In this document: piece by piece, positions 8,061 through 62,373 of the stretch
How the letters are laid out: each line of letters opens with the position of its first letter
Position numbering within the stretch: the first letter of the stretch is position 1
Assembly: GCF_015234135.1 (NCBI RefSeq)
Contig: NZ_JADGIK010000001.1
Location: 62,001-126,000 of the forward strand
Source: Faecalibacter rhinopitheci
GTDB taxonomy: Bacteria > Bacteroidota > Bacteroidia > Flavobacteriales > Weeksellaceae
DNA length: 64,000 bases
Reading direction: 5' to 3'
Position numbers and translations under genes: made by a program
The notes under the pieces: model-generated
What the model was told of the DNA's origin: nothing
Databases searched by the model: none
Seen by the model: the letters and a program-made list of their open reading frames with translations, nothing else

Positions 8061-9434
8061 ATGTTTCAAAGTCTTCAAGATAAATTAGACAAAGCTTTAC
8101 ATACCTTAAAAGGTAAGGGACAAATTACAGAAATTAACGTTGCAGAAACGATTAAGGAAGTAAGAAGAGCCTTAGTTGATGCCGATGTTAGTTATAAAGT
8201 AGCTAAAGATTTTACAGATACAGTTAAGAAAAAAGCCTTAGGATCAGATGTTTTAACATCTTTAAATCCTAGCCAATTAATGGTTAAAATCGTTCATGAC
8301 GAATTAACTGAATTAATGGGAGGTAAGCAAGAGGATATTAATATTGATGCTAATCCTTCAATCATTTTAATTGCTGGTTTACAAGGTTCTGGTAAAACAA
8401 CTTTCTCAGGTAAATTAGCTAATTTCCTTAAGACAAATAAAAACAAAAAAGTATTATTAGTAGCTGGGGATGTATACAGACCTGCAGCTATTAATCAGTT
8501 ACAAGTTTTAGGTGAGCAGATTGGAGTTGATGTCTTTGCTGATTTAGAAAATAAAAATCCAGTTGAAATTGCACAAAATGCTTTAGCTCAAGCAAAACAA
8601 AACGGTAATAATGTTGTTATTATAGATACAGCGGGTCGTTTAGCTATTGATCAAGAGATGATGGACGAGATTCGTCGAGTACATCAAACTGTTAATCCAA
8701 CAGAAACTTTATTTGTTGTAGACTCTATGACAGGTCAAGATGCTGTAAATACAGCCAAAGCGTTTAACGATGTATTAAATTATAGTGGAGTTGTATTAAC
8801 TAAGTTAGATGGTGATACACGTGGTGGAGCTGCTCTAACAATTCGTACTGTTGTAGATAAGCCAATAAAGTTTATTTCTACAGGAGAAAAGATGGAAGCT
8901 TTAGATATTTTCTATCCGGAACGTATGGCAGACCGTATCTTAGGAATGGGGGATGTTGTTTCGTTAGTAGAAAAAGCACAAGCACAATTTGATGAAGAAG
9001 AAGCTAAAAGACTTCAAAAGAAAATTGCAAAAAATAATTTTGATTTTGATGATTTCTTAAAACAAATTCAACAAATCAAACGTATGGGTAACATGAAAGA
9101 TTTAATCGGAATGATCCCAGGAGCTGGTAAAGCATTAAAAGATGTTGAGATTAGCGATGATGCTTTTAAAGGTGTTGAAGCTATTATACATTCTATGACT
9201 CCAAAAGAAAGACAGAATCCAAATATTATTGATAATTCACGTAAAAAAAGAATTGCGTCTGGTTCTGGTACAACTTTACAAGAAGTGAATCAATTATTAA
9301 AACAATTCTCTGAAATGGGTAAAATGATGAAATTCATGAACTCATCTCAAGGAAAAACCATGATGGAAAAAATGTCTAAAAATATGCCGGCTGGTGGTTT
9401 CCCTGGAATGCCAGGAGGAATGCCTAAAATGTAA
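8061..9434 (+). CDS. ffh: Signal recognition particle protein Ffh (SRP54)
   Basis: 457 residues in the usual order: N-terminal helical bundle (1-90), GTPase G domain (about 95-300) and a Met-rich M domain (about 320-450). GTPase motifs are GLQGSGKTT at 106-114, DTAGR at 189-193 and TKLD at 247-250, followed by the SRP-specific GDTRGGA. The C-terminal tail is rich in Met, Gly and Pro, as expected for the signal-sequence-binding groove. With 4.5S RNA and FtsY it targets nascent membrane proteins to SecYEG. The FtsY alternative is excluded by the M domain. Single-gene unit with promoter and terminator; the accessory patch begins just downstream. Confidence 0.98.
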   Translation: MFQSLQDKLDKALHTLKGKGQITEINVAETIKEVRRALVDADVSYKVAKDFTDTVKKKALGSDVLTSLNPSQLMVKIVHDELTELMGGKQEDINIDANPSIILIAGLQGSGKTTFSGKLANFLKTNKNKKVLLVAGDVYRPAAINQLQVLGEQIGVDVFADLENKNPVEIAQNALAQAKQNGNNVVIIDTAGRLAIDQEMMDEIRRVHQTVNPTETLFVVDSMTGQDAVNTAKAFNDVLNYSGVVLTKLDGDTRGGAALTIRTVVDKPIKFISTGEKMEALDIFYPERMADRILGMGDVVSLVEKAQAQFDEEEAKRLQKKIAKNNFDFDDFLKQIQQIKRMGNMKDLIGMIPGAGKALKDVEISDDAFKGVEAIIHSMTPKERQNPNIIDNSRKKRIASGSGTTLQEVNQLLKQFSEMGKMMKFMNSSQGKTMMEKMSKNMPAGGFPGMPGGMPKM

Positions 9435-9459
9435 TTTTAAGATTCATATAATATAAATT

Positions 9460-9485
9460 AAAACCTTCAAGTAATTGGAGGTTTT
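9460..9485 (+). terminator. Hairpin terminator after ffh
   Basis: An 11-bp stem with one G-T wobble (9460-9470 with 9475-9485, loop GTAA), followed by more T residues, 26 bases past the ffh stop. Confidence 0.75.
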
Positions 9486-9504
9486 TTTATTTAATTGCTA
9501 TATA

Positions 9505-9519
9505 TATTATGTTAAATAG
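9505..9519 (+). repeat. 15-base motif copy 1 (forward)
   Basis: TATTATGTTAAATAG, forward orientation, 20 bases after the ffh terminator. It contains GTTAAAT (9511-9517), which fits the integron core-site consensus GTTRRRY. It is the left partner of the inverted copy at 10176-10189. Confidence 0.7.
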
Positions 9520-9540
9520 AATTCTAATTTAAATAATTAA

Positions 9541-9883
9541 AACACAACAGAAGGTCGAATATTCATGTTCTTAGAATATTACAATTAACTAACAGAAGAT
9601 GAGCTTATTAAAATATATAGGCTTAATAAACACAATTTATGTATAATAAATCAAGGAAATAGAAACGAAATAAGCACCATTGATTTAAAATTGGAATTTG
9701 TTGATTCAAAGCAATTACATAATTATTTAACTAACCGCAATAGTTTTATAATGCCTTATGAAAATAACTATCAATGATAAATATATTGTTTTTTTAAATA
9801 TAGAAGCAGACTAAAAGTTTACTTTACAATCTACAGCAACTAATTATCCAGGAGGTTATTGTTTTTATGCTAGAGCTAAGTGA
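9541..9883 (+). pseudogene. Decayed gene remnant, probably cassette-borne
   Basis: A translated thread can be followed through this stretch despite lesions: a start-like ATG at 9565, an in-frame TAA at 9586, then about 60 open codons beginning LTEDELIKIYRLNKHN to a TGA at 9775, a +1 shift into NDKYIVFLNIEAD, a TAA at 9812, and an open tail ending YPGGYCFYARAK before a TGA at 9881. The pieces abut in order, which is what a decaying single gene of about 110 codons would give. No family recognised. It lies between inverted copies of the 15-base motif, like the intact SMR gene next to it. Confidence 0.55.
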
Positions 9884-10177
9884 AGTTAAAATTTATCATA
9901 TGATTCAATAAAGCCATCTTATACAAATCTTAAGACAAGATAGTGCACTTATCATTAGCTAAGGGTTTCAAATTGTAATCAATTAAAAGCTTGTAAATAA
10001 TAAACCAAAGACAATGTATTACAATCGTGATTATTTGTATTTAATTCATATTATCTTATTCTTAAATATATTCTTGAACACAAACTTTCTAAAATAATTT
10101 TCCAATTCAAACTATTACAACCATTGTATTATAATTTCCACATAAGCTTCTATTAATAGGGCCTCTTAATCTTCTTA

Positions 10178-10251
10178 TTTAACATAATAAAGATTATTAA
10201 TAATAAAATAACAAAGTTATTTTTATTATTATAATATATATTATGTTAAAT
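10178..10251 (+). repeat. 74-base imperfect palindrome, integron attC-like
   Basis: The ends ATTTAAC (10178-10184) and GTTAAAT (10245-10251) fit the attC outer boxes RYYYAAC and GTTRRRY. The outer 13 bases pair perfectly. An inner stem pairs AATAATAAAATAAC with GTTATTTTTATTATT leaving one extrahelical T. Length and single-base bulge fit attC sites. Against it, the unpaired spacer that normally adjoins the outer boxes is missing, and no integrase gene is in the window. Abutting terminal repeats of two small mobile elements would look similar. Confidence 0.45.
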
Positions 10252-10327
10252 AGTGTTTTTAGATAACCCTATTTAAAGGAATAATAATATTATTAATCTA
10301 TTTTTGTTTTCATCTTGAAAAGTATAT

Positions 10328-10663
10328 ATGAAATATTATTTATTCTTAGCTGCTGCAATAATTTGTGAAGCTATTGGGACATCGTTTTTAAAAAAGACTG
10401 AGCAATTTACTAAACCAATTCCAACAGCAATATTTGTTATAGCAATGGTATCTTCTTTCTTCTTATTAAGCAATGCACTCAAAGGTATACCTATCGGTAT
10501 TTCTTATGCTATATGGTCTGGTGTAGGAATTGTAGTAATATCACTCGTAGGATATTTTATATATAATGAAAATCTAGACCTACCTGCTATAATTGGAATT
10601 GTATGTATAATAATAGGTGTAATTATCATAAACGTCTTTTCTAGTTCTACAACCCATTCTTAG
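10328..10663 (+). CDS. Small multidrug resistance (SMR) efflux protein, EmrE/QacE subclass
   Basis: 111 residues with four membrane segments. The essential acidic residue is Glu14 in ICEAIGTS. The strongest signatures are YAIWSGVGIV and LDLPAIIG, nearly identical to those of EmrE and QacE, and the C-terminal SSSTTHS recalls the EmrE tail. These proteins work as antiparallel dimers in the inner membrane, exchanging protons for quaternary ammonium compounds, biocides and dyes. The gene stands alone, 17 bases from a downstream inverted copy of the 15-base motif and 76 bases after the palindrome. SMR genes are frequent integron cargo, which fits the context. The SugE/Gdx guanidinium branch is less likely from the signatures. 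Confidence 0.93.
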   Translation: MKYYLFLAAAIICEAIGTSFLKKTEQFTKPIPTAIFVIAMVSSFFLLSNALKGIPIGISYAIWSGVGIVVISLVGYFIYNENLDLPAIIGIVCIIIGVIIINVFSSSTTHS

Positions 10664-10774: not shown

Positions 10775-10805
10775 TTGTTATTTGGAATAATTTAAAATAA
10801 ATTTG
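10775..10805 (+). promoter_or_regulatory. Promoter of the TonB receptor operon
   Basis: TTG (10775-10777), a 20-base spacer and a perfect TAAATTTG (10798-10805) match the Bacteroidota -33/-7 consensus. The predicted transcription start is just before the ATG at 10824, so the leader is very short. This also rules out translation from the TTG at 10803. Confidence 0.7.
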
Positions 10806-10823
10806 CATTCGAATTCAGAACGT

Positions 10824-13559
10824 ATGAAAAAAGGATTATTAACATTAGGAATGCTAGTTGGATGCTTGCTATCTGTACACGCTCAGAGAACTATTTCTGG
10901 TAAAGTATTGGACGAAAATAAGAATCCGTTATCTAATGTTTTGGTACAAGATCCAATTACTAAAAAATGGACACATACTAATACTGATGGTAAATACTCC
11001 ATTGAAATTTCTAATGATAATTCGTATATCATCATTTCTCAATTAGGTAAAGATACTCAAGAAATATTTCTTTCTCCCGAAGATAAAAATATAGATGTAA
11101 TACTTTATAAACAAAGTCTTCGCTTGGATGAAGTTGTAATCACACCAAAGCGTAAAAAAGATTATTCCGAAATAACTTTAGGTAAAGAAGCGATTGAAAA
11201 TGTTCAAGCATTCTCATTAAACGAGGTTTTAGAGCAGTTACCAGGACAATTTACACCAGATTTTAATAACAATCAATTCAAAAATATAGTTTTTCGTACA
11301 GCCGATAATAACGTTAATATTTCAAAATTAGCAAATGGATCTAAAGATCGCCAAGATTATTTTGCGAATAGAGCTTATGGAACATCTGTAGTATTAAATG
11401 ATATTCCGTTGTCTAACAACGAAAATATGCAAAGCTACTCTCCCAACACTTCCGACCCATTTAGTCAGAGTACGGTAGCCAATAATATTAGTAATGGGTC
11501 TGATAACGTTTTTGCAAATAGTAATTACGGATATGATCTTAGAGATATCGGAACAAATAACATTGAGGAAATAAAAGTTATACAAGGTGTTGCTCCAGCT
11601 AAATATGGAGATATGTCTACAGGGCTTATATTGGTTACTACAAAAGCTGGTGAGACGCCTTACAGAGCTTCAATTTCATTACGAGATGCAACGACTGAGT
11701 ATAATTTGGCTAAAGGATTTAAAATAACTGATCGGAATTTTTTGAATACTAATTTCAATTTTCTTGAATCGAACGCTGATCCTAGAAATAGTTTAACAAA
11801 ATTCCATCGATTTTCAGGAAATATAGCTTGGAAAACAAATAATAAGGCTTCTAACCTTACAAATACTTTTACAGTAAATTTTTCTAAAAATTTGGATAAA
11901 GTAAAAGGCAATCCCGATGATTTCTCTGATCCTAAAGTAAAAAATGACAAGACGATTATTCGATTTTCAGATAATTTGAAATGGAACTTAAATAAATCTT
12001 GGATTGATACGTTTAATATTGATGCAAATTTTAGCTACGAAAAGACTGTTTCGTTCAAAGAAGAATGGCGAAATCAAGGTATATCAGCAGTTACAAATGC
12101 AACACAAACTGGTATTAATAATGCTATAATTATTCCTGCACAATATTTTTATAATATGAATGTAGAAGGAATTCCAATTTCTACTTATTTTAATGCTGAG
12201 GGAATAAAATCAATTACAACAAAATCTGAATGGATTCATACTCTCTCTGTTGGTATTTCCTCTAGAACAAGTTCTAATATTGGACGAGGAAGATATTCTA
12301 CTGGAAATAATGTACCTAATATTTTAACGCTAAGTGGTGCTTCTGGAGGATTAGGTTACAGAGATTATAATTTTCGTAATTCTAAGACTGTATTACAATT
12401 GGCAGCTTATGCTGAAGACCAGATCACAAAGTACTTCTCTAATGATGCTGTTTATAAATTAGACTTAGGTTTACGTTATGAAAATCAATTGGGTTATTCT
12501 TCGTTTCAACCACGTGTAAATACATCTTATGCTTTAAATAAGTTTATTCGCCTGCGTGGAGGGTTAGGTCTTACTAGTAAAACGCCTTCTCTTAGCCAGT
12601 TATATACTGGTGAGAGATACTATGATTATTTACTAGGACAAGGAATTTATTCGGTACCTAATACAGGATATGTTGGTTGGATTCAGACCTATCAATTACC
12701 AGGAGATAATCAAAATTTAAAACCTATAAAGACCATGAACACCGAAATTGGTGTAGATCTAAATTTTGGTTTTGGAAATCTAAATATTACTGGGTTTTAT
12801 AATAAGATGACGGATGGAATTACTTCTTTACAAGATCCATTTTATAAGCAAATAGCTTTAATTGAATTAAATACAGCTGGTCCTACTCCAACTTATGATG
12901 TGATAGGTAATAAAGACCAATACTTCTTTTCAAATAATTTAGTTAATGGATTGACGTCAGAAGATAAAGGTATTGAAGCTTTTATGACATTTAAGCGCAT
13001 TAAACCTTTAAATTTAGATATTCAAATCAATTCATCTTATATTCAAACAGCAAATAAATCTCAGGTTAAAGAGTACAAAATATCAAGTGTTCTTACATCT
13101 AATGAAAAATATGGTGTATACAATGGTTTAAAAACTAATACTGAACAACTTACACTAGGTTCTAATTTTAATTATCATTTAAAAAAGGTAGGATTATTAC
13201 TTTCATTAAGAACAGAACATATTCTTATTATGAATCATGACCGTAACCAAGTTCGAAACCCAATTGGATATCTAGATAAAGAATTTCTATATCATGAAAT
13301 TCCAGTTCAGGATCAAGGAAATACAGATTTGTATGGAAATTTAATTAATAGTCCTATTACTGGTTCAGAAAAATTGCAAAAATCAATTCATAATATTCAT
13401 TTTAGATTATCTAAAGATTTCTTAAATGGATTTAAGGTTTCAGTTTACACAACAAATATTTTTGGTTTAAAGCCTACTTACATAGATTCTACAAACGATC
13501 GAAAAATTTATCCAATTGCACAATTTAGTCTTGGAGGAAAACTAGAATATTCATTTTAA
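10824..13559 (+). CDS. TonB-dependent receptor with N-terminal carboxypeptidase-regulatory-like domain
   Basis: 911 residues from the ATG at 10824; the longer TTG start overlaps the -7 element. A signal peptide ends near VHAQ. Then comes a carboxypeptidase-D-regulatory-like domain (about 22-105, TISGKVLDENKNPLSN and TNTDGKYSI), a plug domain (about 115-285) closing with APAKYGDMSTGLILVTTKAG, and a 22-strand-type barrel ending in Phe (KLEYSF). Such receptors import iron chelates, haem, cobalamin or glycans through the outer membrane with TonB energy. No SusD partner follows, which argues against glycan uptake. It opens a four-gene operon ending with a di-haem peroxidase, so a metal or haem-related substrate is plausible but unproven. 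Confidence 0.92.
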   Translation: MKKGLLTLGMLVGCLLSVHAQRTISGKVLDENKNPLSNVLVQDPITKKWTHTNTDGKYSIEISNDNSYIIISQLGKDTQEIFLSPEDKNIDVILYKQSLRLDEVVITPKRKKDYSEITLGKEAIENVQAFSLNEVLEQLPGQFTPDFNNNQFKNIVFRTADNNVNISKLANGSKDRQDYFANRAYGTSVVLNDIPLSNNENMQSYSPNTSDPFSQSTVANNISNGSDNVFANSNYGYDLRDIGTNNIEEIKVIQGVAPAKYGDMSTGLILVTTKAGETPYRASISLRDATTEYNLAKGFKITDRNFLNTNFNFLESNADPRNSLTKFHRFSGNIAWKTNNKASNLTNTFTVNFSKNLDKVKGNPDDFSDPKVKNDKTIIRFSDNLKWNLNKSWIDTFNIDANFSYEKTVSFKEEWRNQGISAVTNATQTGINNAIIIPAQYFYNMNVEGIPISTYFNAEGIKSITTKSEWIHTLSVGISSRTSSNIGRGRYSTGNNVPNILTLSGASGGLGYRDYNFRNSKTVLQLAAYAEDQITKYFSNDAVYKLDLGLRYENQLGYSSFQPRVNTSYALNKFIRLRGGLGLTSKTPSLSQLYTGERYYDYLLGQGIYSVPNTGYVGWIQTYQLPGDNQNLKPIKTMNTEIGVDLNFGFGNLNITGFYNKMTDGITSLQDPFYKQIALIELNTAGPTPTYDVIGNKDQYFFSNNLVNGLTSEDKGIEAFMTFKRIKPLNLDIQINSSYIQTANKSQVKEYKISSVLTSNEKYGVYNGLKTNTEQLTLGSNFNYHLKKVGLLLSLRTEHILIMNHDRNQVRNPIGYLDKEFLYHEIPVQDQGNTDLYGNLINSPITGSEKLQKSIHNIHFRLSKDFLNGFKVSVYTTNIFGLKPTYIDSTNDRKIYPIAQFSLGGKLEYSF

Positions 13560-13577
13560 TACCATAAAATCATAGCA

Positions 13578-14906
13578 ATGATTAAAAAAATTATCATATT
13601 ATCATCGTTGATGGCAGGTTTCTTTTTACAATCTTGTAATGACGACGATTTTGTAGGAATGACACTTACACCTATTAGTATTACCACTCAGGTAAAATTT
13701 GGTGGAGACTTTGCTTCTACAGATGCTAAAGCATATAATGCAAATGTTGTTTTCAAAAATGCAGAATCTGGTATAGAATATATTTCTCAGACAGATGCAA
13801 ATGGTAATGTTATTTTTCCTACAGTTTTACCAGGTAAATACAATGTGAATGTAACGTTAAGCTTATCTCCTACTCAATTCGAAGAATATTTTGGATATGA
13901 CTCCGGATCAGAAGAAAATATAATTTTTAATGGGATGGCAGAAAATATTGCCATTACAACAAGTGGTACAACATTGTCTGTTGAACTGTTGGCCTCTAAT
14001 ACAGTTGGTGGTTTAGTTATAAAACAAATTTACTATGCTGGTTCTCATACAACTCTAGGAGCATCATTTCGCGATCAATTTGTAGAAATTTATAATAACT
14101 CGAATGAAGTTATATATGCAGATGGACTAATATTTGCTCAATTATACGGCAATAATACCGTTGGTACAGAACCTTATAACTTACCATCTGGTCAACTAAA
14201 TTGGGCTTTAGCAGAAGGAAATACCAAAGGAGAATCTGCAAATACAGATTATGTATACGCAGATTATGTATATAAAATACCAGGAAACGGAATTCAATAC
14301 CCAATACAACCAGGACAAAGTATCGTAATTGCTGCTACTGCAGTTAATCATAAATCTAATTACACCGACGAATCGGGTAATACTGTAACGATAAAAAATC
14401 CTGAACTTACTGTAGATTTATCAAATGCTGATTTCGAAGCAAATTTAACATCTTTTACAGGTAATCAATACCGTTATGATATTCAGAATCCAAATGTTCC
14501 CGATTTAGAAATTCTGCATTGGGTATCAGGTGCAGATATGATTTTAGATAATCAAGGACGTGATGCATATATAATTATGAAAGCTACTCCAGAAGAATTT
14601 GAGACTTTCAATAAAGTAAAAACTCCAAAAGGAGGTTCAAATAGTTTATATCTTCAGATTCCATCATCGTATATTATAGATGGTGTAGATACCACCAAAG
14701 ATCTTGGAAATAATGTAGTGCCTAAAAAACTAAAAGGGTCTCAAGATTCAGGACAAACTTACGTTGTTGCAGGTGCATTTACATCATACGCTGTAATTCG
14801 TAAAACTCAGAAAGTAGTAAATGGTCGAACAATTTTAAAGGATACAAATAATTCTTCAGAAGATTTTGTGAATATCATCGCAACTCCAAAAGGTTTCGCT
14901 AACTAA
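13578..14906 (+). CDS. DUF4876-like surface lipoprotein
   Basis: 442 residues. A lipoprotein signal ends at Cys20 (FLQSC) and is followed at once by NDDD, an acidic stretch resembling the Bacteroidota lipoprotein export signal for the cell surface. Residues about 30-130 look like an Ig/carboxypeptidase-regulatory-type beta-sandwich (DANGNVIFPTVLPGKYNVNV). Residues about 165-260 contain FVEIYNNSNEVIYADGL, similar to lamin-tail-domain folds. The whole matches my memory of DUF4876, a family found beside TonB receptors. It starts 18 bases after the receptor gene. It may act as a surface lid or ligand-capture partner, as SusD-like and HmuY-like proteins do for other receptors. No direct evidence for ligand. 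Confidence 0.75.
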   Translation: MIKKIIILSSLMAGFFLQSCNDDDFVGMTLTPISITTQVKFGGDFASTDAKAYNANVVFKNAESGIEYISQTDANGNVIFPTVLPGKYNVNVTLSLSPTQFEEYFGYDSGSEENIIFNGMAENIAITTSGTTLSVELLASNTVGGLVIKQIYYAGSHTTLGASFRDQFVEIYNNSNEVIYADGLIFAQLYGNNTVGTEPYNLPSGQLNWALAEGNTKGESANTDYVYADYVYKIPGNGIQYPIQPGQSIVIAATAVNHKSNYTDESGNTVTIKNPELTVDLSNADFEANLTSFTGNQYRYDIQNPNVPDLEILHWVSGADMILDNQGRDAYIIMKATPEEFETFNKVKTPKGGSNSLYLQIPSSYIIDGVDTTKDLGNNVVPKKLKGSQDSGQTYVVAGAFTSYAVIRKTQKVVNGRTILKDTNNSSEDFVNIIATPKGFAN

Positions 14907-14917
14907 AAAACACTCGG

Positions 14918-16516
14918 ATGAGATCTAAATTAGATTTAAATTCTTATGACATATCCTTATTTGCACGTAAAAATGTGAATAAGGTTTTAATTTTAATAAT
15001 GGGTAGCCTTGCTTCCATTGCTAATGCACAGGAAAACGATTCTATAATAATAGATTCAAATCCATTACATATACAAGACATAGATCAACTAAATCGTTTA
15101 CCTATTTCATTTTCTAATAGAAATGTGAATGACTTTACTCAAACTGAAGTTTATTTTAGTCATAAAAAAAATGAATTTTCGCGTAAGCAAACTGCTGCTG
15201 AAACGAATAGATATGGTTTTAAAAGTCAAGGGTTATTTAATGTCAAAAATGATATTAAAATTTTTGGGACAATAAAATTAGAAAAATACTTAGAAAAGGA
15301 TTTAGCATTTAATCTTTCTGATGATCGAACAGATGATGCTGAAGTACTTAATCCTCATTATTACTTTGTTCCTCGTTCCTCAGATTGGAATAATCAACAA
15401 TATCATATTAGCGGTGGAGCTATTAAGAGTTTTGGTGGTTTTAACCTTGCAATTAAAGCTAGTTTAGATGCCAATAAACTAGCGCGCCAAGTAGATCCAA
15501 GACCAGAAATATCTAATAGAAAATTGTACGGTGAAATATCAGCAGGTTATACTTTGAAAAATCACCAAATATTTGTGTTAGGTGGTTATGGGCAAAAAGA
15601 TAAAGATTATAATTACTACTATAGTAATGACCAATTAGACTCTCCCGCAAATCCTGATACATATATACGTTTTCAGAGTGGATTTGGTCGCGTTATAAAC
15701 AAGCCTTATTCTACTAAAAGTAATTTTTCTCGTAAAACATTTAAGCATTTAGGAGCTGGATATCAATACACTTCAGCAAATACTGTGTTAGGAGTAGATT
15801 ATGCATATGAGCATGATTTAGAGAATATTTATAATGAAGAGTTTAAGTCAGATAGTTACTTAAGGTTTCAATATCAAACAATTTCTTATCAAGGGAATTT
15901 GAGATTAAGACACCGTATTAATGATAAAGTCTTAAGAGCTAATTTATCAGGTTATAAAACAACCTCTAAAAATTTTGATAATATATCTATCGGTACCAAT
16001 TATATGAACCGCCAACGAAATGTGACCTTTGATATTAATTTTTCTAAACAAAAAGATCAACTTGTAAAGTACTATTTTGGGGCTATTGCATCATATAATC
16101 AAAATAGATACATGGATCAGTTGGCGTATGTAGATCAAAAAATAAATTCTTTAAATGTAGGAATTTATGGAAATAAAGATATTGAAACGAATAACAAATC
16201 AAAATTTAATATCGGCCTTAGTTTTAATTACTATACAGCCATAAAGAATGAGTTAGACTATATAAATATATATGGAACAACAGATAATATATTTTATAAC
16301 GAAGTAATACGTAATGATTTTGCATATAATTCTCTTGATAAATTAGATACGAGAGCTGATATACGCTACATTTTACCCATTAAAAACAATAAAAATGTTG
16401 TCATTTATACTCAATTAAGAAGTATCTTCGCATTAAATAAAAATAGAAATAACGTAGTTGAGATTAATACAAATACAACGTATCAAGCCAATTTCGGAAT
16501 TCAATTGAATTATTAA
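14918..16516 (+). CDS. DUF6850-like outer membrane beta-barrel protein
   Basis: 532 residues. A signal peptide follows a longer than usual N-terminal region: hydrophobic segment about 22-37, cleavage near ANAQ. The alternative is a later start at the Met preceding GSLASIANAQ (residue 28), which would leave too short a leader. The rest is a repetitive run of amphipathic strands with aromatic girdles (for example LRFQYQTISYQGNLRLRH) and a final NFGIQLNY typical of a barrel end. It matches my recollection of the DUF6850 family that accompanies DUF4876. It is placed 11 bases after the lipoprotein gene and 10 before the peroxidase gene. It may form a second pore or a scaffold for the system. Confidence 0.7.
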   Translation: MRSKLDLNSYDISLFARKNVNKVLILIMGSLASIANAQENDSIIIDSNPLHIQDIDQLNRLPISFSNRNVNDFTQTEVYFSHKKNEFSRKQTAAETNRYGFKSQGLFNVKNDIKIFGTIKLEKYLEKDLAFNLSDDRTDDAEVLNPHYYFVPRSSDWNNQQYHISGGAIKSFGGFNLAIKASLDANKLARQVDPRPEISNRKLYGEISAGYTLKNHQIFVLGGYGQKDKDYNYYYSNDQLDSPANPDTYIRFQSGFGRVINKPYSTKSNFSRKTFKHLGAGYQYTSANTVLGVDYAYEHDLENIYNEEFKSDSYLRFQYQTISYQGNLRLRHRINDKVLRANLSGYKTTSKNFDNISIGTNYMNRQRNVTFDINFSKQKDQLVKYYFGAIASYNQNRYMDQLAYVDQKINSLNVGIYGNKDIETNNKSKFNIGLSFNYYTAIKNELDYINIYGTTDNIFYNEVIRNDFAYNSLDKLDTRADIRYILPIKNNKNVVIYTQLRSIFALNKNRNNVVEINTNTTYQANFGIQLNY

Positions 16517-16526
16517 TTATTAGAGA

Positions 16527-17672
16527 ATGAAGAAACCAATTCCTATCATTGCATTAGGTGTTTGTTTTGCTTTATTAGCTTTAAAACCTAATAAGGTTAT
16601 TGATCAAGGCTACACGATTGATCAATTAAGAACTTTATATACGAGTGGCGACCAAACTAAATGGCCTACTCCAACGGTAGATTCTGCTGTATATGCTGAC
16701 GGATTTGAGGATATAGGCACATTGGGCGAAGTTCCATTTCCTGCTTCTAATCCCTATTCAAAAGAAAAATCAGATTTAGGAAAAGTTCTATTTTTTGATC
16801 CTCGTCTATCAAAATCAAATCAGATTTCTTGTGCTAACTGTCATGATCCTGAACAAAATTGGGGTGATAGTCGTCGTATTCCTTATGGAGAAGATCGCCA
16901 ATTAGGCGCTAGAAATAGCCCATCATTAATGAATATAGCTTATTCTAAAGCAATGTTTTGGGATGGTCGTGCAAAAGATTTAGAAGATCAAGCAACTTTC
17001 CCAATTAAAGATCCTAAGGAAATGAATTTCCATATTGATTTTGCAACAAAGAAAATTGCAGGAATCAAAGGGTATAAAGAATTATTTAAACAAGCTTTTG
17101 GAGATGATAATGTAACAAATGAGCGTATTGTAAAAGCAATTGCAACTTTTGAACGTACTATTCTTTCTCCTAAGACTCGTTTCGATAAATTTATAGCGGG
17201 AGATTCAAAACAATTAACAGATCAAGAAGTAGAAGGTTTACACCTTTTCCGTACAAAAGCAAGATGTATTAATTGTCATAATACAGCTTTATTTTCTGAT
17301 TCAAAATTTCATAATATTGGGTTAACATATTATGGACGTGAGTACGAAGATTTAGGCTTTTATAATACTACAAAACTAGCTAAAAATGTTGGTGAGTTTA
17401 AAACCCCCTCATTACGAGAAGTGCCACAAAATGCACCTTATATGCATAACGGACTTTTCCCTACTATTCGTGGAGTTTTAAACATGTACAATGCAGGAAT
17501 GTTTCATTTTCAACCTAATGAAAAACAAAAAAATGATACATTATTTCCTAAAACTTCTTCTTTGGTTAAAAAATTGGATTTAAACACATCAGAAGTCGAC
17601 GCATTAGAAGCTTTTTTAAATAGTTTAAAACAAAATCAATATAAAATGAGACCTCCAGTTTTACCAAAATAA
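16527..17672 (+). CDS. Di-haem cytochrome c peroxidase (CcpA/MauG family)
   Basis: 381 residues with an N-terminal export signal (about 1-20). Two haem c attachment sites are visible, CANCH at 102-106 and CINCH at 247-251, with the second-haem ligand region APYMHNG around residue 307. The domain order is that of bacterial cytochrome c peroxidases, which reduce hydrogen peroxide in the periplasm; MauG relatives instead modify protein residues. WDGRA and TPSLREV are usual family landmarks. It is the last gene of the TonB receptor operon. Its presence suggests that peroxide-linked or high-valent haem chemistry belongs to the function of this operon, either detoxifying peroxide near imported iron or modifying a substrate. 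That role is inference. Confidence 0.92.
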   Translation: MKKPIPIIALGVCFALLALKPNKVIDQGYTIDQLRTLYTSGDQTKWPTPTVDSAVYADGFEDIGTLGEVPFPASNPYSKEKSDLGKVLFFDPRLSKSNQISCANCHDPEQNWGDSRRIPYGEDRQLGARNSPSLMNIAYSKAMFWDGRAKDLEDQATFPIKDPKEMNFHIDFATKKIAGIKGYKELFKQAFGDDNVTNERIVKAIATFERTILSPKTRFDKFIAGDSKQLTDQEVEGLHLFRTKARCINCHNTALFSDSKFHNIGLTYYGREYEDLGFYNTTKLAKNVGEFKTPSLREVPQNAPYMHNGLFPTIRGVLNMYNAGMFHFQPNEKQKNDTLFPKTSSLVKKLDLNTSEVDALEAFLNSLKQNQYKMRPPVLPK

Positions 17673-17696
17673 AATTGGAAGATTACTAATTTATAC

Positions 17697-17727
17697 AAAA
17701 GCGACTTTAGAATTTAAAGTCGCTTTT
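17697..17727 (+). terminator. Hairpin terminator closing the TonB receptor operon
   Basis: A perfect 13-bp stem (17697-17709 with 17715-17727, five-base loop) followed by more T residues, 25 bases after the peroxidase stop. Confidence 0.85.
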
Positions 17728-19067: not shown

Positions 19068-21473
19068 ATGCCACAACTCCATATAGAGATCATTAATTAT
19101 GATTCGAAAATAGATTATGAAACTTTTATAAATCAAATCAAAACAAATGATTTAATTGACGATGCAAATATTAATCTTGAAACTAAAACACTAGAAGTTA
19201 CAGCAAAGAAAATATTCAAGATTAAAGAATTTGTTTATCAAACAATGGACGATTTTCGCATTTCATACGATTATGAGATTGAATCCTATCCGATCCTTAA
19301 TATGACTTGTGCTTCGTGCGCATCTAGCTCTCAAGCATTTCTTCGTCGTCAAGAAGGTGTAATTACTGCAGATGTAAATTATGCCAATACGTCCGGAACT
19401 ATAAAATATATCCCTACACAAACTACTGCAGAAAAATTAAAAGAACAGTTGAGTACTATTGGGTTTGACTTAGTAATTCCAACTGAAGATGATGATATAT
19501 TGCCGTATGACGAAATGATTGCTCTACGCTTACATTTACAACAAAACAATACTATTGCAGCAACTTTATTAGGGATACCATTATTTGTTATTGGAATGTT
19601 CTTTATGGATTGGGAATGGGCAAACTTTACGATGTGGATCCTAAGTTCTATGATTCTATTTATTTTTGGTCAACGTTTTTTTGTGAATGCGTTACAACAA
19701 TTGAAGAACAGAACAGCAAATATGGATACGCTTGTAGCGTTAAGTACAGGAATTGCTTATATTTTTAGTTGTTATAACTATGTTTTTCCACATACATTTC
19801 ATCAAGACGGGAATCATCATGCACCAATATATTTTGAAGCAGCAGGGATTATTATTGTATTTATTCTTATTGGAAAATTATTAGAAGAAAAGGCTAAATT
19901 CAAAACCTCCGAAGCTATCAAAAAATTAATGGAACTTCAACCAAAGGAAGTTTCTTACATAGATGGCGATCAGTTTAAGACTAAATCTATTGATTTGGTT
20001 GAAATAAACGATATTTTAGTTGCAAATGCAGGAGAAAAAATTGCAGTTGATGGAATAATCGTGAAAGGACAATCTAGTTTTGATGAAAGCTCTCTTACAG
20101 GTGAACCACTACCAATAGATAAAGGTATGAATAAAAGAGTTTTTGCCGGAACAATTAATCAAAACCAATCTATTCATTATAAAGCTGATAAAGTTGGTGA
20201 TGATACGGTTCTTGCAAAAATAATCAATTCTGTACAACTCGCTCAGGCCTCGAAAGCACCCGTTCAACAATTAGTAGATAAAATTGCAAGTATATTTGTA
20301 CCAATTGTTCTACTGATTGCATTGCTTACATTCTTTGTTTGGTTCTTTATTAACCCATCGGAGAATATTAATCTTGCTATATTAACTTCTATCACAGTAC
20401 TTGTTATTGCTTGTCCATGCGCACTTGGTTTGGCAACGCCTACTGCATTGATGGTAGCAATGGGTAAAGGCGCAAAAAATGGAATTTTAGTAAAAGATGC
20501 TGAAAGTTTGGAACGTGCCAATAAAATAGATGCTATTATTCTTGATAAAACAGGAACAATTACAGAAGGAAAACCTAAAGTTGTTGCTTCAGAATGGTTT
20601 GGTAATTACGAAGATTATGAAATCCTTAAAACATTAGAACAAAATACAAATCATCCAATTTCTAAAGCTATTTTAGATACTATACCAGCAGCAGTTATTC
20701 CAACTTCAAATCTAGAAATTAAAGAAATTATTGGTTTTGGTCTAAAAACTATACATCTTGGTTCAACATATTTAATTGGCAAATTGGATTGGATCACCCA
20801 AGAAAATATTTTGACCGAACCTCATCAAAATAGTATAATTGAAAACTATATTAATCAGAATTATTCTATATCTGTTTTTATTAAAGATAAAAATTTGATT
20901 GGTATTTTTGGTGTTTCGGACGAAGTTAAAGTGACCTCAGCAATGGCTATTAAGGAATTACAAAATAAAGGTGTTGAGGTTTATATGCTTTCCGGAGATC
21001 AACAAAAAGCTGCGGAAGCTGTTGCTCAGAAAGTAGGAATTAATCATGTTTTCGGAAATTGTTTACCCCAACAAAAATTAGATTTCGTTAATCAATTACA
21101 AAAAGATGGGAAAGTTGTAGCAATGGTTGGCGATGGCATTAATGATGCAGCTGCATTAGCAAAGGCCGACGTTTCTATTGCAATGGGAAATGGATCTGAT
21201 ATTGCAATTGATGTTGCTCAACTTACAATTATTAATGGAGATTTAAATAAAGTTTTACAAGCTATTCATCTCTCAAGACAAACTGTAAAGACTATACGTA
21301 TTAATTTATTTTGGGCATTTATCTATAATATAATAGGTATTCCAATCGCTGCAGGAATATTATACACCTATAATGGATTTTTATTAAATCCTATGATTGC
21401 TGGAGCTGCAATGGCCTTTAGTAGTATAAGTGTAGTAACAAATAGTATTTTATTAAATTACCGTAAGATCTAA
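19068..21473 (+). CDS. copA: Copper-translocating P1B-type ATPase
   Basis: 801 residues. Residues 1-72 look like a ferredoxin-like HMA fold that has lost its CxxC, and a second HMA domain (about 73-140) keeps Cys81-x-x-Cys84 in MTCASC. The membrane metal motif is CPC at 449-451, the phosphorylated Asp493 lies in DKTGT, TGE is in SLTGEPLP, and the hinge GDGIND is at 688-693. The CPC motif places it in the Cu(I)/Ag(I) exporting group of the inner membrane. HMA, A, P and N domains follow in the normal order. It is 27 bases downstream of the photolyase gene, with a terminator behind it. No copper-responsive regulator or chaperone lies next to it. Confidence 0.95.
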
Positions 21474-61770: not shown

Positions 61771-62373
61771 TTAATGATTTCTTAAAGCTTCTATATTTAA
61801 ATTAGCCAAATTAATTTCAGTTCTTAAAGAATTAAACACATACATTTCTAAATCGTCTACATAGTTTAACACAAAATCATATTTTAAATCTTCATGTTGT
61901 TTCTCCAACAGTTTTAGGATAGTTTTCAACTTTGTAACTTGATATACACGCGCTTTGAAAGCAAAAATTGTATCCTCGTTTTGGATGGTTTTAAAAAACT
62001 CTGATGATTTCACCAATAAGAATGTTCTAAGCTCCAATTCGTAAGAAGTGCTTTTAGTTACTTTTGCGAAATGATTAATTTTTCCGGATAAATTTCTTAT
62101 TAAACTGAGATATAACTTACCTCTCAAATAAACACTTGCAGCAGAAATTAGATGTCGGTTGGCATCAAGCTGCTCATTAATCTCATTTTTTAAATCCTCA
62201 AATCGCTTTATTAAATCAAATTCATCTTCTAAAAGCTTAAAATGAAGTTGTTCTATTAAGATTTGATCTTTATTGATTAATCGAACCAACATTTGATCTT
62301 TCTCTTTGGTTGTTAAATCAAGTATTGCTTGTTTAAGTTCTGGTATTTGATTAACGTTTAACTTCTCTTTCAT
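61771..62373 (-). CDS. Conserved helical protein, function unknown
   Basis: 200 residues, mainly helical with a long charged central region (FDLIKRFEDLKNEINEQLDANRHLIS) and heptad-like hydrophobics, so coiled-coil formation is likely. No catalytic motif, signal peptide or membrane segment. It is 41 bases upstream of the Asp-box gene on the same strand, so they may be one unit. I do not recognise the family. Confidence 0.65.
   Translation of the reverse strand: MKEKLNVNQIPELKQAILDLTTKEKDQMLVRLINKDQILIEQLHFKLLEDEFDLIKRFEDLKNEINEQLDANRHLISAASVYLRGKLYLSLIRNLSGKINHFAKVTKSTSYELELRTFLLVKSSEFFKTIQNEDTIFAFKARVYQVTKLKTILKLLEKQHEDLKYDFVLNYVDDLEMYVFNSLRTEINLANLNIEALRNH

Follow-up and report, generated by a model that had tools for sequence, protein, structure and literature searches.

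A conserved operon of Faecalibacter rhinopitheci that places a predicted MauG-type di-haem enzyme with TonB-dependent uptake genes behind a Fur-type box

A stretch of 64,000 nucleotides of Faecalibacter rhinopitheci (Bacteroidota, Weeksellaceae; assembly GCF_015234135.1, contig NZ_JADGIK010000001.1, forward-strand positions 62,001 to 126,000), here called the window, carries a four-gene operon for a TonB-dependent receptor, a DUF4876 lipoprotein, a DUF6850 barrel and a di-haem enzyme. The operon is real, and its arrangement cannot be put down to chance because it is found repeatedly across Bacteroidota. A preliminary description, made from the DNA letters, had listed a single promoter and terminator, the four products and intergenic gaps of 18, 11 and 10 bases; coordinates, Pfam and hairpin folding confirmed the gaps, the products and the terminator, and the promoter elements were read by eye. 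We propose, with a probability of roughly 0.45, that the operon is Fur-repressed and imports an iron chelate, and that its enzyme oxidises the imported ligand to free the iron. What is new is the MauG-type enzyme coupled to these genes; that the uptake half is linked to iron was known before.

Results

The four genes are co-conserved in Bacteroidota

The named loci on which much of this analysis rests are the best 80 of 294 confirmed relatives and come from Flavobacteriaceae, Weeksellaceae, Sphingobacteriaceae, Chitinophagaceae, Cyclobacteriaceae, Balneolales, Tannerella and others. Receptor, lipoprotein and barrel are contiguous in 79 of these 80 (L135 stops at a contig end), and the enzyme is the fourth gene in 69, with median intergenic gaps of 15, 8 and 3 bases. 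In five loci the enzyme gene adjoins the receptor gene in divergent orientation (L125, L126, L131, L146, L154), and in three it lies at another genomic site, scoring at family level with 535–573 bits (L123, L132, L143); L139 holds fragments only, L135 is not judgeable and the Tannerella locus (L157) has no enzyme. To read a missing downstream enzyme as a missing enzyme was wrong for eight of nine window-type loci searched genome-wide (the five divergent and three distant cases, L157 being the exception), and also for G205 and G281. The four genes are thus co-conserved, as the preliminary description had expected, and the functional link that it drew between enzyme and uptake genes is supported.

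Two genome samples, 296 genomes of the same order and 392 drawn across the phylum, were also searched. In the order, DUF4876 scores above cut-off in 26 genomes and DUF6850 in 27, all 26 lying within the 27 (the extra genome, G213, has a barrel remnant); across the phylum each does so in 39 genomes and, by comparing lists, both in 37. The two families therefore travel together, and the pair occurs in about a tenth of the sampled Bacteroidota. Twenty loci read out from the order have receptor, DUF4876 and DUF6850 without exception, 16 of them with the enzyme as next gene. Enzyme scores in the order exceed 570 bits in 28 genomes, with a second group at 458–520 bits and the remaining listed matches below 290; the high-scoring enzyme is held by 24 of the 26 DUF4876 genomes versus 4 of the 270 others. 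One locus, L042, has an additional 436-amino-acid gene (9063–10373) separating the receptor gene from that of DUF4876; its product has a sorting-type tail at the C-terminus.

A Fur-type box fills the promoter spacer

The operon is predicted to be under Fur-type control. A Fur-box-like palindrome, TATTTGGAATAATTTAAAATA, occupies the spacer between the -33 and -7 promoter elements (Table 1), so that bound Fur would block the promoter; it is the sole site with at most 3 mismatches in the window. The look for a Fur site at the promoter proposed in the preliminary description thus returned a candidate. We assigned the two elements from what we take to be the Bacteroidota promoter consensus. The -33/-7 naming is used in the portion of PMC5609570 available to us.

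A motif-free palindrome search upstream of the receptor genes gave TATTTAGAATnATTCTAAATA as recurring among orthologous promoters. Taking the 94 promoters with at least 150 bases upstream and a receptor frame longer than 800 amino acids, and leaving out the others, the box is present with at most 4 mismatches in 68 (0.7 expected from shuffles) and with at most 3 in 52 (0.02 expected), a comparison that is partly circular because the consensus was derived from those same promoters. Two checks came from outside this comparison. In the first, over 1.63 Mb of named loci and window, the motif was counted at 72 sites with up to 3 mismatches and the reversed pattern at one. The source genome has 14 such sites versus 7 for a backward control, so about half of them may be chance. 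Genes beside the own-genome sites, named by eye from their first residues, include esterase, ferredoxin reductase-like, hemA/AraC, receptor and ankyrin-like genes; a hemA/AraC-like pair, one esterase-like and one ankyrin-like gene are preceded by the sites of L165, L170 and L160. In the second outside check, the motif proved to match the published Fur box of Riemerella anatipestifer, ATTTAGAATTATTCTAAAT, with an identical core; the part of that work seen reports electrophoretic mobility shift assays on selected promoters.

The enzyme is of the tyrosine-ligated MauG/BthA kind

The fourth gene product matches CCP_MauG (PF03150; 187 versus 25.6 bits, 4e-55) and has CXXCH motifs at residues 102–106 and 247–251, together with Trp145 and Tyr321. 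Its N-terminal part is nearest to bacterial peroxidases and its C-terminal part to BthA and MauG. Tyr321 aligns with MauG Tyr294 (3l4m; counted along the alignment) and with the BthA tyrosine, at a position where MacA (3hq8) has Met. We take MauG Tyr294 to be the axial ligand of the second haem and the MacA Met to be the corresponding ligand of classical peroxidases. Tyr321, Trp145 and both CXXCH motifs occur without exception in the clade (76 of 76 members), the tyrosine in only 4 of 9 outgroup paralogues; a loop His is absent from the window enzyme (Glu122) yet present in 55 of the 76 relatives. By alignment, the enzyme belongs to the tyrosine-ligated MauG/BthA kind. The 'di-haem peroxidase' of the preliminary description therefore stands as to the CCP_MauG di-haem family and falls as to a classical peroxidase.

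Three narrower identities were rejected. A classical bacterial cytochrome c peroxidase needs Met at the second haem, where the window enzyme has Tyr321; MauG of TTQ (tryptophan tryptophylquinone) biosynthesis (TIGR03791) misses its equivalog cut-off at 236.6 versus 443.85 bits, though the axial Tyr matches; and MbnH (TIGR04039) reaches 222.7 versus 362.85 bits, with no MbnP model match among the neighbouring genes. In a tree of 85 rows, for which every second named locus was taken from L080 onward, the uptake-linked enzymes fall in one clade of 78 rows (98/98 support), two of which are paralogues on long branches; the orphan and SusCD-type copies described below are nested inside it.

The same enzyme serves an unrelated capture module

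Five loci of the second score band (L225, L226, L227, L239, L224) are receptor-SusD-lipoprotein-enzyme operons that employ the enzyme with neither DUF4876 nor DUF6850. Three of them have in front genes that we take to be the sigma and anti-sigma genes fecI and fecR, with a box of at most 2 mismatches about 90 bases before fecI; L239 has one before the gene preceding SusC, and L224 has no such box upstream, so that four of the five SusCD-type loci have a Fur-like box. Pfam names the receptor and SusD of L225, and gives no match for the lipoprotein in the two loci tested. That one enzyme accompanies two unrelated capture modules, both iron-boxed, points to the cargo rather than to a partner protein. 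Four more second-band loci (L228–L231, Chryseobacterium-like) have no such operon and no box at up to 3 mismatches. Orphan enzymes (L220, L221, L222 and L223, in G028, G115, G253 and G213) lack a box upstream; three of these genomes have lost the uptake genes and G213 keeps its barrel remnant.

Loci without the enzyme

Among 46 DUF4876 genomes, 17 have the clade enzyme, 13 have DUF4857, none has both and 16 have neither (Fisher p 0.0007), where 13 of the 46 were hand-chosen with their content partly known beforehand and the other 33 were drawn across the phylum. In 11 of the 13 genomes with DUF4857, its gene shares a contig with DUF4876 or DUF6850 and is no more than about 12 kb away. Two of the four loci without adjoining enzyme among the 20 read out from the order have ATP-binding cassette (ABC), DUF4857 and PepSY genes nearby. 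In the order members L040 and L047, an ABC ATPase, a permease, DUF4857 and PepSY genes lie near DUF4876/DUF6850; a flavodoxin-like gene also adjoins in L047, and a small Cys-Ser-His-motif protein is common to both.

Receptor, lipoprotein and barrel

The receptor has a CarbopepD_reg-like N-terminal domain (CarbopepD_reg_2), a plug and a barrel (TonB_dep_Rec, 8e-20), above the cut-offs for PF00593 (72.5 versus 27 bits) and PF07715 (28.3 versus 23.9 bits). A SusC/RagA identity (TIGR04056) was rejected at 56.5 against a cut-off of 368.25 bits, with no SusD match within the operon. No conserved His was found in the receptor alignment, which speaks mildly against haem as cargo.

The second product is a DUF4876 protein (PF16215; 112.7 versus 27.9 bits, 3e-32) with SCNDDD after its signal. 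NDDD after the lipid Cys is, we assume, a surface-export type of signal, so the lipoprotein is probably at the cell surface, in agreement with the preliminary description. Its model has a predicted local distance difference test (pLDDT) score of 89, with the BT_1938 structure 4q1z nearest, and Foldseek returned strong matches to its own family only; its conserved residues are mostly Gly, Asp, Asn and Arg/Lys, plus one His. The third product is a DUF6850 protein (PF21012; 210.7 versus 27 bits, 6e-62), modelled by AlphaFold2 at pLDDT 90.1 with similarity to barrels in general. Its top Foldseek matches are TonB receptors at a template modelling (TM) score of about 0.4 and its top VIA-align matches mixed porins (CymA, Z 18.4, root-mean-square deviation 5.1, 285 aligned); we read these matches as 'a barrel' and not as pointing to any specific relative. 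Of 78 related barrels, 68 entered the alignment used for folding, and of 78 related lipoproteins 56, in both cases together with the window sequence. DUF6850 is not named in any PMC paper that we found.

Coordinates and neighbouring genes

Table 1. Features of the operon, in window positions.
Feature	Position	Strand	Basis and remarks
-33 promoter element TTG	10775–10777	+	Read by eye; 20-base spacer to TAAATTTG
Fur-box-like palindrome TATTTGGAATAATTTAAAATA	10779–10799	+	Departs from the orthologue consensus at 3 of its 20 fixed positions
-7 promoter element TAAATTTG	10798–10805	+	Read by eye from the sequence
TonB-dependent outer-membrane receptor, 911 amino acids	10824–13559	+	Pfam, open reading frame; start revised from 10803
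DUF4876 lipoprotein, 442 amino acids, lipid Cys 20 then NDDD	13578–14906	+	Pfam, solved homologue 4q1z (BT_1938), model
DUF6850 outer-membrane barrel, 532 amino acids, 18 long strands predicted	14918–16516	+	Pfam, AlphaFold2
Predicted MauG-type di-haem c enzyme, 381 amino acids	16527–17672	+	Pfam, alignments, conservation
Intrinsic terminator, hairpin and T run	17697–17727	+	Fold -15.3 kcal/mol, z -5.75

The receptor gene was given the ATG start of Table 1 (MKKGLLTLGMLVGCLLSVHA, signal-peptide-like) in place of the listed TTG, because that TTG falls within the -7 element. The terminator hairpin was not among the matches listed by a consensus terminator scan of the window. Upstream lies what we take to be an SMR-type transporter-like gene (10328–10663) and downstream, from 17745, a presumed photolyase-like gene; both are separate from the operon, which has its own promoter and its own terminator. 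Past the terminator and the photolyase-like gene, 1.4 kb downstream of the operon, 19068–21473 is presumably a heavy-metal P-type ATPase-like gene. Among the loci viewed, Algoriella (L079) and Empedobacter (L080) alone have genes near the operon that match these last two in length and order.

Discussion

A model of how the operon may work is as follows. Under iron starvation Fur would leave the spacer box and the four genes would be transcribed. The DUF4876 lipoprotein, beside the TonB receptor at the surface, would capture a chelate, and the receptor would carry it into the periplasm, as knowledge of their families suggests. The DUF6850 barrel might be a third outer-membrane member of such a complex or, possibly, an exit or entry channel. 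The MauG-type enzyme would then oxidise the imported ligand with peroxide or oxygen, releasing iron in the periplasm, and in relatives that lack it the ABC/DUF4857/PepSY module may take its place. An iron chelate is the most likely cargo and also the most likely substrate of the enzyme, with peroxide or a partner protein as possible substrates.

How well is the iron link documented? In the parts of PMC10434189 seen, PG1019-22 (DUF4876, receptor and hypotheticals) rise 20.8–214.5 fold under iron starvation, BT3625-33 rise 38.1–128.1 fold, and BT1933-39, which include the protein solved as 4q1z, rise 3.5–7.4 fold. The accessible text of PMC10470040 places a DUF4876 gene among strongly haemin-responsive genes, and that of PMC10101095 has PG_1019 and PG_1020 among altered genes; the portion seen of an Elizabethkingia iron RNA sequencing paper does not name these genes. 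Together with the box, these data agree with the dedicated, iron-linked uptake unit of the preliminary description. They also show the uptake half to be an already known kind, since DUF4876-receptor genes of Porphyromonas and Bacteroides are published, as far as those texts go, as an iron-starvation stimulon, which gives such pairs a described context and modifies the preliminary description on this point. No description of this operon was found in the PMC literature, subscription papers lying outside the search.

Several observations weigh against our proposal. Every measured induction comes from relatives that lack this enzyme. The 80 named loci are biased, having been selected as the best matches to the window, and across the phylum such an enzyme is present in only 12 of the 39 genomes with DUF4876. 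Fourteen of the 94 promoters, three enzyme-less loci among them, have no box at up to 5 mismatches, and an own box precedes only one of five enzyme genes in trans. Four Chryseobacterium-like genomes retain the enzyme without the uptake genes. Finally, the non-overlap of enzyme and DUF4857 follows taxonomy and is not significant in the 33 unselected genomes (p 0.077).

What else could a di-haem enzyme do in such an operon? It could be a protective peroxidase, clearing periplasmic hydrogen peroxide while iron enters through the same Fur-controlled system, and we consider this rather unlikely. Its CCP_MauG family and the likeness of its N-terminal half to true bacterial peroxidases suit such a shield, as does its absence from the Tannerella locus and from the DUF4857-module genomes, of which several are possibly anaerobic; that two uptake modules have recruited the enzyme would suit it too. 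However, Tyr replaces the classical peroxidase Met in all 76 members, and the window enzyme is without the loop His that most of its relatives have. Moreover, in the part of the A. pleuropneumoniae study seen, a mauG/CCP gene falls under iron restriction (-1.95), which makes it odd to spend haem iron on a plain scavenger during starvation.

Enzymes of the MauG type are known as oxidants that modify proteins, and also from copper settings; MauG acts on methylamine dehydrogenase and MbnH is held to act likewise on MbnP. The window enzyme could accordingly mature one of its three companions, lipoprotein, barrel or receptor, by oxidising a residue there to form a metal or ligand site, which we regard as improbable. 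In favour are its ligand set, the MbnP/MbnH and MopE/SACCP gene pairs, of which the Mbn pair lies near TonB receptors in the text seen of PMC3621798, and DUF4876 Trp209, found in 57 of 57 members of the window-like alignment; a second DUF4876 subfamily has two other Trps in 16 of 17, the lone exception, L017, being an enzyme-less locus. Nevertheless, no Trp is conserved across all enzyme partners (90–92 rows for each of the three proteins, leaving out L133, L135, L139, L091 and L092 as fragments or cut contigs and not including L079), Trp209 persists in the Tannerella locus and the Trps of the second subfamily in L003, both of which lack the enzyme, and the SusCD-type loci have the enzyme without DUF4876 or DUF6850. 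The subfamily-specific Trps, seen later, leave the idea of Trp maturation weakened rather than closed. Slightly less probable still is haem or copper as cargo. The haemin-dependent expression of a P. gingivalis relative (PMC10470040, in part), the MauG-like enzymes adjoining copper-linked TonB receptors (PMC3621798, in part) and the ATPase-like gene downstream would fit it. Against these, the receptor has no conserved His and the lipoprotein one, the promoter carries an iron-type box, and the ATPase-like gene lies beyond terminator and photolyase-like gene, with an adjacency limited to two genera.

The peroxidase of EfeUOB/YwbLMN has the DyP fold, unlike the window enzyme, and the XusABC lipoprotein is, we believe, of another family than DUF4876. 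Both systems resemble the operon in other respects: EfeUOB/YwbLMN is described, in the sources as far as seen, as an iron-uptake system linked to Fur that includes a protein of the haem peroxidase type, but has no TonB receptor and another lipoprotein, whereas XusABC of Bacteroides thetaiotaomicron pairs a TonB receptor with a surface lipoprotein for iron chelates (PMC12150765, in part), XusC being a reductase candidate, in contrast to the oxidising di-haem enzyme of the window, which also has an additional barrel. The iron-stimulon loci PG1019-22, BT3625-33 and BT1938-39 likewise have a receptor adjoining a DUF4876 lipoprotein and are strongly induced by iron starvation; BT3625-33 differs in having DUF4857, ABC ATPase and PepSY genes, with no di-haem enzyme named in the text seen. 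MbnT/MbnP/MbnH of methanobactin loci, MopE/SACCP and CorA/CorB likewise couple a MauG-like enzyme to a partner protein in metal starvation (PMC3621798, in part), but these systems are linked to copper and not to Fur, and the window is without an MbnP-like partner.

Our proposal that the enzyme frees iron from an imported chelate has a wider form, which we hold only tentatively: aerobic Bacteroidota may open periplasmic ferric chelates by high-valent oxidation of the ligand, with the enzyme as a portable part attached to two or more unrelated TonB capture systems under Fur control; relatives that share the capture module would use ABC/PepSY proteins. If true, this would answer how aerobic Bacteroidota release iron in the periplasm. 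A large conserved MauG-type branch tied to iron-starvation uptake would give such enzymes a new job, and DUF4876 and DUF6850, two families of unknown function, would gain a testable label.

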